Shown here piece by piece: positions 12,317-62,554 of a DNA stretch of 64,000 nucleotides. This DNA is from Sedimenticola hydrogenitrophicus (GTDB lineage Bacteria > Pseudomonadota > Gammaproteobacteria > Chromatiales > Chromatiaceae). Numbering within the stretch: the first letter of the stretch is position 1; each line of letters begins with the position of its first letter. The notes under the pieces are model-generated. The model was not told where the DNA came from, did not search any database, and worked only from the letters and a program-made list of their open reading frames with translations. The stretch spans positions 62,001 through 126,000 of the forward strand of contig NZ_JAQGEI010000011.1 of the NCBI RefSeq assembly GCF_029017505.1, in the 5' to 3' direction. The position numbers and the translations under genes were made by a program.

Positions 12317-12805
12317 TCAGCTGACCTGGAACTTGCGCCGCAGATCCCGCAGCACGATGTACACCCAGGGCCAGAGGAGCATGCCGACCAGGGGCGGCGC
12401 CCAGTAGGAGAGCGGCGGCGTGGGCTGACCCACGGCACCCATGACCCAGAGGGAGAGCAGTTTCTCCAGCAGCAGCAGTACCAGGATGGTCAGCGACTGC
12501 TGCCACAGGGGAAACAGGCGGATCCGCAGATGCATCTCGAAGGTGATGTAGGCGATCAGCCCCAGCGACAGGGCGTGCTGCCCGAGCAGGGTGCCGGAGA
12601 GCACATCGACCACGATGCCGAGCAGCCAGCCGACACCGACGCCGACCCGCAGGGGCAGCGCCATGGTCCAGTAGATCAGCACCAGGGTGTACCATTGCGG
12701 GCGCAGCATCTGCGCCCAGTCGGGCAGCGGCAGGATGGCCAGCAGCAGGGCGACGCAGAAGCTGGCAATGATGACCGGTGTGCCGCTTCGGGGTGTCAGC
12801 GTCAT
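12317..12805 (-). CDS. mreD: Rod shape-determining protein MreD
   Basis: A 162-residue inner-membrane protein with about five hydrophobic segments, which in the family joins MreC and the PBP2-RodA pair. The frame is open to 12904, but the upstream 33 codons are non-hydrophobic and lie inside mreC. The ATG at 12805 overlaps the mreC stop as ATGA, which is the conserved arrangement. The Pro-Gln-Trp-Tyr-Thr-Leu-Val-Leu-Ile-Tyr-Trp pattern and Gly-Leu-Ile-Ala-Tyr near the middle agree with gammaproteobacterial MreD. Confidence 0.92.
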   Translation of the reverse strand: MTLTPRSGTPVIIASFCVALLLAILPLPDWAQMLRPQWYTLVLIYWTMALPLRVGVGVGWLLGIVVDVLSGTLLGQHALSLGLIAYITFEMHLRIRLFPLWQQSLTILVLLLLEKLLSLWVMGAVGQPTPPLSYWAPPLVGMLLWPWVYIVLRDLRRKFQVS

Positions 12806-13710
12806 GGCTCCCCCGCCGGCGTCTGTGCCGCGGCCTGCCCGGACGTCTCCGGGGGCGCTTCGGTCTCCTCGGCGGTGTCCTGGCCGGGCGGTGTCAGCGT
12901 CCACACCAGCAGCGCCTCGCGGGCGCGTTCCAGGTGGGCGCTGGGCTGGGCCCTGATGCGGGCGAAGGGTTCGCCCGGTTCGCGGCTAATGGTGGTCACC
13001 GTGGCGACCGGGTAGCCGGACGGGAAGCGGCCGCCCAGCCCGGAGGTGACCAGCAGGTCGCCCACCTCGATGTCGGCATTGTTCGGCAGATTCGGCAGCT
13101 CCAGCTCATTGATGTGCCCGGTGCCGATGGCCACGGTGCGCAGGCCGTTGCGGTTCACCTGGATCGGCAGTGCATGGCTGGCGTCGGTGATCATCAGCAC
13201 CGAGGAGGTGAAGCGGTTGACGTGCACCACCTGGCCCATGACCGCGTTGGCGTGCAGCACCGGCTGGCCCTTGTAGATGCCGGAGCTGGAGCCCTTGTTC
13301 AGCAGCACCAGCTGGCGGTACGGGTCCATGTCCACGGCGATCAGTTCGGCGATCAGCACCCGGTCGCCGAGCTTGAAAGAGGAGTCGAGCAGATCCCGCA
13401 GGCGCATGTTCTCCGCCTCCAGGGCCGCCAGTTTCTGCTGCCGGCCCTGCAGCAGCAGGTTCTCCCGGTGCAGTTCGCGGTTCTCCTCCTGCAGGTGGGT
13501 GCGGGTGGCGAACGTCTCGGAGGCCCAGTAGCCGATGGCGATGGGCAGATTGGCCACAAACTGCAACGGGTAGGTGACGGTGGAGAGCAGTGAGCGGACC
13601 GCTTCCAGATGGTGCTGGCGGTGATCGACAATCATCAGGACGAGCGAAAGCACCACGGCGAGCAGTACGCGGATACTGGTGGACGGACCTTGTGTAAAGA
13701 TCGGTTTAAT
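12802..13710 (-). CDS. mreC: Rod shape-determining protein MreC, apparent AUU start
   Basis: A bitopic scaffold that links cytoplasmic MreB to periplasmic PBP2. With the start at 13710 it has 302 residues: a short cytoplasmic tail, a transmembrane helix at about 14-30, a coiled coil at about 75-105 rich in Glu and Leu, and the two-barrel MreC domain to about residue 265, then an acidic and proline-rich tail. No ATG, GTG or TTG fits the conserved N-terminus. A TGA lies three codons upstream of an ATT codon in the place of the usual Met, followed by Lys-Pro-Ile-Phe-Thr-Gln-Gly-Pro-Ser as in E. coli. AGAGG precedes it by ten bases. A GTG at 13656 would truncate the helix. Confidence 0.85.
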   Translation of the reverse strand: MKPIFTQGPSTSIRVLLAVVLSLVLMIVDHRQHHLEAVRSLLSTVTYPLQFVANLPIAIGYWASETFATRTHLQEENRELHRENLLLQGRQQKLAALEAENMRLRDLLDSSFKLGDRVLIAELIAVDMDPYRQLVLLNKGSSSGIYKGQPVLHANAVMGQVVHVNRFTSSVLMITDASHALPIQVNRNGLRTVAIGTGHINELELPNLPNNADIEVGDLLVTSGLGGRFPSGYPVATVTTISREPGEPFARIRAQPSAHLERAREALLVWTLTPPGQDTAEETEAPPETSGQAAAQTPAGEP

Positions 13711-13751
13711 AGGGGATCAGCCTCTTGACTTCTGATCAGCGCCTGACGGCA

Positions 13752-15216
<1,465 letters not shown>

Positions 15217-62124: not shown

Positions 62125-62200
62125 AAGAAATCCAGTTAAAGTTGTGCGTTCACCGCGCCCAACGTGAGCTGATAATTGTATTTTTAGGAGTTACCTGATG
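62125..62200 (+). promoter_or_regulatory. Candidate S4-binding leader before rpsM
   Basis: The 93-base gap contains TTGTGCGTTCAC and GTGAGC flanking a C-rich loop, then an AT-rich stretch and TTTTTAGGAG before the rpsM ATG. The order of elements resembles the E. coli alpha-operon pseudoknot bound by S4, which begins with a similar TTGTGCGTT. S4 (rpsD) is encoded downstream in this operon. Pseudoknot pairing was not computed. Confidence 0.4.
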
Positions 62201-62554
62201 GCCCGTATTGCAGGCGTCAACATTCCCGATCGTAAGCACGCGGTCATCGCGTTGACCGAGATCTATGGAGTCGGTTCTACCCGTGCTGCTCGTATCTGCG
62301 AGGCCGCGGGTGTGGCAAAAGATGCAAAGATTCAAAACCTGACCGAAGGTGAAGTAGAGGCGCTTCGTGCCGAAGTCGCCAAGTTTACGGTCGAGGGCGA
62401 CCTTCGCCGTGAAGTGTCCATGAACATCAAGCGTCTGATGGACCTTGGTTGCAATCGTGGAATCCGTCACCGTCGCGGCCTGCCGCTGCGTGGCCAGCGT
62501 ACCAAAACGAATGCGCGTACCCGCAAAGGCCCGCGGCGTCCGATCAAGAGATAA
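62198..62554 (+). CDS. rpsM: Small ribosomal subunit protein uS13
   Basis: A 118-residue head protein at the subunit bridges. It starts [10 protein letters not shown] and ends with the basic tail containing [10 protein letters not shown] that touches P-site tRNA. First gene of the alpha block. Confidence 0.97.

Follow-up and report, generated by a model that had tools for sequence, protein, structure and literature searches.

Exceptions to initiation at AUG, GUG or UUG are usually seen as oddities found in infC and a handful of other genes. In E. coli, an AUU start reportedly limits pcnB synthesis, to judge by the title of a paper by Binns and Masters from 2002. In the excerpts consulted, ATT starts are given for infC and none for mreC (PMC5559785, PMC3091656, PMC1805508), and an AUU start is given for pcnB of E. 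coli (PMC9410913). The initial annotation of the locus described here had regarded AUU starts as known mainly from these two genes; pcnB is borne out, but the codon is less confined, with AUU or AUA starts described for cvfC1, ccpN and citZ of S. aureus. These three starts gave about 10% of the level of an AUG reporter in poor medium, ccpN reached up to 30% of it in rich medium, and extended Shine-Dalgarno (SD) sequences are described at infC, cvfC1 and ccpN (excerpts of PMC13009471). For Streptomyces sigR a GTC start is given, and IF3 is stated to act on codons of the infC and sigR type (excerpts of PMC5472188).

The mreC gene of Sedimenticola hydrogenitrophicus is described here as a member of this set, with an AUU codon that probably sets the amount of wall-building MreC made. 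It is like infC in having an AUH (AUU, AUC or AUA) codon behind a strong ribosome site, apparently within the same genome, where infC reads ATC; it differs in that infC feeds back on its own product, whereas mreC encodes a wall-elongation protein. We know of no role of the mreC product in initiation. The pcnB gene, reported for E. coli, shares the AUU start and, going by the paper title, the limiting of synthesis. Likeness to sigR lies in a non-canonical start behind a long conserved site (AGGAGGTG) and in an operon where the ratio of partners matters; however, among 34 species of a single genus the sigR codon is GTC in 32 and GTT in two rather than AUH, and its IF3 dependence was measured (excerpts of PMC5472188). 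With ccpN (AUA) and cvfC1 (AUU) it shares a start of the AUU/AUA type with extended SD pairing, kept in relatives, but these are other genes of another phylum, whose starts were mapped by Ribo-Ret and measured with reporters (excerpts of PMC13009471).

No report of a non-AUG start of mreC was found in the literature; coverage of subscription journals was poor, so this is weak evidence. The excerpts seen of PMC5945682 and PMC3694923 contain nothing on the mreC start codon. Non-AUG starts as such are already known; what is new is mreC as a member, the breadth of conservation and a natural set of compensated AUG replacements. A core morphogenesis gene keeps an AUH codon in most genomes read from one bacterial class.

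The mreC locus and its first codon

The window, meaning the whole stretch of 64,000 nucleotides that was analysed, was found to hold mreC between mreB and mreD (Table 1). The identity of mreC was established by matches to TIGR00219 (230.2 bits, cut-off 92.75) and Pfam MreC PF04085 (138.7 bits, cut-off 28), and the solved MreC chain 7eft aligns with the product over residues 1-277 of both. The ATG of mreD overlaps the stop codon of mreC by four bases (ATGA), an arrangement shared by 43 of the 50 AUH genomes in which both genes could be aligned, the canonical mreD codon nearest the mreC stop having been chosen by script. Elsewhere in the window, positions 62146-62230 match the Rfam alpha operon ribosome binding site (45.9 bits, gathering 38).

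Table 1. Features of the mreC locus, in positions of the window
Feature	Position	Strand	Basis or remark
mreC reading frame	12802-13710	minus	302 codons plus stop; TIGR00219, PF04085, structure alignment
Putative AUU start codon of mreC	13708-13710	minus	Aligned with Met1 of E. coli MreC
In-frame TGA, three codons 5' of AUU	13717-13719	minus	Closes the frame; sequence
Predicted extended SD, GAGG(C)UGAUCC	13714-13724	minus	RNAduplex
Extended SD, GAGG part	13724-13721	minus	
Extended SD, bulged C	13720	minus	
Extended SD, UGAUCC part	13719-13714	minus	
mreB, upstream cistron, ATG start	13752-14801	minus	Pfam MreB_Mbl, 491.1 bits
mreD, ATG at 12805	12317-12805	minus	Position, and frame similarity among relatives

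On the minus strand the 5' region of mreC reads AGTCAAGAGG CTGATCCCCT ATT AAA CCG ATC TTT ACA CAA GGT CCG TCC. The initial annotation had taken this ATT for the first conserved codon, at the place of Met in E. coli MreC, with a TGA three codons upstream and AGAGG stopping ten bases before it. All of this was confirmed in the minus-strand sequence (AGAGG at 13725-13721), and mreC of E. coli K-12 (b3250) has ATG at the aligned codon. Between TGA and ATT lie TCC and CCT alone, with no ATG, GTG or TTG. If AUU is used, KPIFTQGPSTSIR is an example of a tryptic peptide that would be derived from residues 2-14 of MreC.

The GTG codons downstream had been rejected as starts in the same annotation, and rightly so, being sited inside the membrane helix at a place of weak ribosome-site energy; their first bases are, however, 13656 and 13653 and not 13659 and 13656. 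An ORF list limited to ATG, GTG and TTG begins mreC at the GTG at 13656, and codon 26 (13635-13633) is ATG in 130 of the 159 genomes which have only an AUH codon at the start (see below), there without a ribosome site. That one of these downstream canonical codons is used, the conservation upstream of it being accidental, is nevertheless very improbable. In AUH genomes the ribosome-site energy was -6.5 kcal/mol at the AUH codon, compared with -1.1 kcal/mol at the first downstream canonical codon and -1.9 kcal/mol at codon 26; the AUH site was stronger than that of the first downstream canonical codon in 155/158 genomes, and a downstream start would lose or cut the membrane helix.

Codon periodicity also argues for a start at the AUH codon. 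Differences between genomes at codon positions 1, 2 and 3 were flat in codons -8 to -5 (0.75/0.74/0.74) and slightly uneven in codons -4 to -1 (0.69/0.56/0.66), while they were clearly periodic in codons +1 to +4 (0.29/0.18/0.60) and 5-9 (0.43/0.34/0.69) and weaker in codons 10-17. It was on ribosome-site energy and this periodicity that both the GTG and the codon-26 ATG were rejected. Periodicity gives no such mark within the genus, where codons -4 to -1 are nearly invariant as well and vary at third positions only (0/0/0.14, much like 0/0/0.20 for codons 1-9). The constancy of AUH within the AUH group is no evidence either, because the group is defined by this codon; it is the absence of any alternative start that is evidence for AUH as the predicted first codon. 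Taken as a comparison of sequences, the data support AUU as the codon at which translation of mreC would start.

The Met at codon 26 lies in the membrane helix and is a trap for start prediction. Gene finders limited to ATG, GTG and TTG must drop the membrane anchor of MreC or misplace the start in AUH genomes.

Occurrence of AUH starts among relatives

The initial annotation had proposed a comparison of this position in related genomes. ATT with a stop three codons upstream was found in 9/9 genomes of the genus (G000-G008), and the same ATT start was found in separate records of S. hydrogenitrophicus SB48, S. selenatireducens BK-1 and S. selenatireducens DSM 17993, some of which may duplicate members of the nine. 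Because of this recurrence it appears very unlikely that raw reads would show ATG, GTG or TTG at the codon. A sequencing or assembly error at the mreC start has a negligible probability: it was ruled out by the ATT in 9/9 genus genomes, and it is contradicted by 159 AUH-only genomes, among them assemblies of one or two contigs (G004, G030, G064, G107).

These 159 genomes are part of a count of 237. Their AUH codon (ATT in 68, ATC in 65 and ATA in 26) either occupies the aligned position or precedes it by one codon, and an upstream in-frame stop closes the frame without any intervening ATG, GTG or TTG. A canonical codon was found at the aligned position in 30 genomes (26 ATG, 2 GTG and 2 TTG) and further upstream in 23. 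A further 15 combine AUH with a canonical codon within the open frame, eight have neither and in two the frame runs off the contig. AUH is therefore not indispensable, given the 30 genomes with a canonical codon at the position and the 23 with one upstream. In the family of the window's organism (n=54) the codon was AUH only in 46 genomes and ATG in four; three have AUH plus a canonical codon and one has an open end. Two rows, G036 and G039, are poor, aligning weakly at the mreC start.

Sampling of the Gammaproteobacteria comprised 369 genomes, 332 of them with an mreC match. The count takes in 187 of these, which favours nearer relatives, and leaves 145 matched genomes outside, seven of which were read later (G234, G255, G312, G371, G420, G469, G512). 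Among the 187, AUH only was found in 115, a canonical codon at the position in 26 and upstream in 23, AUH plus a canonical codon in 14, neither in eight and an open contig end in one. Five of the eight with neither have an AUH codon three codons upstream, preceded by a ribosome site. G489 carries a doubled N-terminal motif (ATA AAG CCG CTA AAG CCA), and the AUA three codons up is therefore the likely start.

A separate phylum search gave 29 loci, counted by eye and distinct as loci from the 237, although five of the genomes (G287, G309, G418, G494, G510) are already among these. AUH alone was read at the aligned position in nine loci; two have AUH one codon upstream, and in five it is accompanied by a canonical codon. 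In 12 the position itself is canonical (11 ATG and 1 TTG), and one locus is unclear. In family f160 (3.7-6.7 Mb), which may perhaps resemble Pseudomonas, ATC or ATT was present in 7/7 loci, one of them also with a canonical codon further up. Four genomes in which MreC shares 74-94% identity with the E. coli protein start the gene with ATG. The AUH start may have arisen once in the class and later been lost in some lineages, among them the ATG genomes near E. coli; the tree itself cannot distinguish gain from loss.

Twenty far relatives outside the 237 were also read, and in 19 a canonical codon is present, either at the position or upstream of it; a canonical codon was available in 6/6 from other classes of the phylum and in 13/14 far members of the class. 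The remaining one, G580, lacks any canonical start ahead of the aligned part of MreC, and has an Ile codon just inside the stop. By its sequence it is a possible AUH start outside the main group.

The same start search was applied to the neighbouring genes, in those genomes whose stretch held the gene and aligned from the first residues. For mreB a canonical start was found in 134/134 genomes and for mreD in 59/60, the exception having ATG four codons inside. The infC gene of the window's genome, used as a positive control, apparently begins ATC GCT GCA CCA behind GGAGG. Among 30 infC loci, 18 have a best-site AUH codon 6-10 codons before the conserved motif, ten gave no motif and two matched the wrong frame; this control is rough, because the AUH codon was chosen by its ribosome site. 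The infC ATC (L106, 1731-1729, minus strand) lies eight codons before the ATG of the standard ORF list, and the genome would apparently have two AUH-start genes, mreC and infC. Over-use of ATA at the mreC start relative to internal Ile codons (20/138, 14.6 expected, p 0.08) was dropped as proof of a start.

Ribosome-site strength and start type

The median ribosome-site energy was -6.5 kcal/mol in AUH genomes (n=159) compared with -2.4 kcal/mol in those with a canonical codon at the position (n=30; p 1e-10, kinship ignored). Compared with shuffled upstream windows, the AUH median was -5.8 vs. -3.9 in the family and -7.0 vs. -4.2 outside it. Canonical genomes outside the family have no site beyond chance, because their energies match those of shuffled windows (-2.45 vs. 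-2.78). The site of mreB itself is alike in both groups, at -3.8 (n=82) and -3.5 (n=25).

Kinship was considered on a tree of MreB and MreC (144 rows, quick method), from which the first ten MreC codons were excluded. Start type is, by this tree, inherited, with at least 12 changes compared with 24.7 in shuffles (minimum 21; 126 rows), and 12 compared with 24.4 in strict rows, that is without those having AUH plus a canonical codon. Among edge-disjoint pairs of unlike start type, the AUH member has the stronger site in 11/11 (Wilcoxon p 0.001), in a test whose AUH side held 12 rows with an extra canonical codon, four of them in pairs; when such rows were left out the result was again 11/11 (p 0.001). 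A thresholded independent-pair test (treekit) with an author-chosen cut of -4.4 kcal/mol, underpowered at nine pairs, gave 5.3 pairs in the same direction and 0.8 in the other (median p 0.125). These comparisons support conservation of the predicted start codon together with compensation by the ribosome site. Four ATG genomes of the own family (G011, G024, G026, G056) have a median site of only -0.45. They are grouped on the tree, have almost no ribosome site and make a good natural replacement set.

It is possible to view the two combinations as neutral states, AUH with a strong site equalling AUG with a weak site in output, between which lineages drift without any advantage of AUH. Such drift fits both the 12 or more changes counted on the tree and the compensation in 11/11 contrasts. 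We consider it unlikely, however, since AUH only is kept in 9/9 genomes of the genus and 46/54 of the family though one base change would give AUG, and since the 12 changes fall short of the 24.7 in shuffles, though inheritance alone also gives that.

The site upstream of the mreC start extends beyond the core SD. With the 16S tail GGAUCACCUCCUUA, the window's GAGG-C-UGAUCC was predicted by RNAduplex to pair at -15.2 kcal/mol (with one bulge), compared with -5.8 kcal/mol with the core anti-SD. The 16S 3' end GGATCACCTCCTT was confirmed in a genus mate (L396); the tail gave 0 matches in the draft of the window's genome and was present in 5/8 other genomes examined. Across the family the longer tail gave a gain of -4.65 compared with -1.9 when the spacer was shuffled (n=46, kinship included), and TGAT occurs in 16/46 spacers compared with 0.9 expected (kinship included). 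Outside the family extended pairing gave no gain (n=113, p 0.34).

RNA folding at the mreC start of the window showed nothing unusual (z 0.29). Coupling to the end of mreB was also considered as a cause and is unsupported, because the distance from mreB to mreC varies and differs little between the groups (medians of 68 and 76 nt, n=150 and 29).

A possible limit on MreC synthesis

Our favoured explanation, which we consider likely, is that AUU with a strong SD sets a fixed and modest rate of MreC synthesis, below that of MreB, and that MreD is probably capped too. Initiator tRNA would start mreC at AUU, giving a protein that begins with Met, while the strong SD, which in the family would pair further into the 16S 3' tail, would hold the ribosome on a poorly read codon. 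This "weak codon plus strong site" would fix MreC synthesis at a modest level, under the MreB of the same cluster. The cap would extend to MreD because mreD begins inside the mreC stop (ATGA), and MreB, lying upstream, would be exempt. That AUG lineages also have weak ribosome sites suggests that it is the rate which is selected, not the rare codon itself.

The initial annotation suggested an IF3-sensitive start that would tie MreC levels to initiation fidelity. On this reading, which is possible though doubtful, rejection by IF3 would be the reason why AUU is retained: MreC (and MreD) would increase whenever IF3 runs low relative to ribosomes, and wall elongation would respond to the state of translation. 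The AUH codons are those of infC, and the idea is made plausible by the infC of the window's genome, which apparently starts with ATC behind GGAGG; the 18/30 infC loci with a best-site AUH codon point the same way. The sigR system also offers a precedent, as an IF3-repressed non-canonical start that sets partner stoichiometry (excerpts of PMC5472188). Against it, AUG lineages are repeatedly without a strong site, which looks like selection of the rate. In a broader form, an IF3-sensitive AUH codon would limit MreC and, by coupling, MreD, their ratio to MreB would follow the IF3:ribosome balance and growth state across much of the Gammaproteobacteria, and enterics and others would have lost the link through AUG with a weak site; this we hold to be rather unlikely. 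We infer that output may be low, that MreD may follow it and that the start may be sensitive to IF3.

The AUU codon opens the MreB:MreC:MreD ratio to a one-base test. The natural AUG replacements with weaker sites are in addition a ready evolutionary experiment on the trade-off between start codon and SD.

The bases flanking the start were also found to be biased. The second base before it is C in 110/159 AUH genomes (CC in 63) and in 7/30 canonical genomes (CC in 2), the window having CT at 13712-13711. The base after the start (13707 in the window) is A in 154/159 AUH and 19/30 canonical genomes. Kinship, the conserved Lys codon or contacts with the initiator tRNA may account for this bias.
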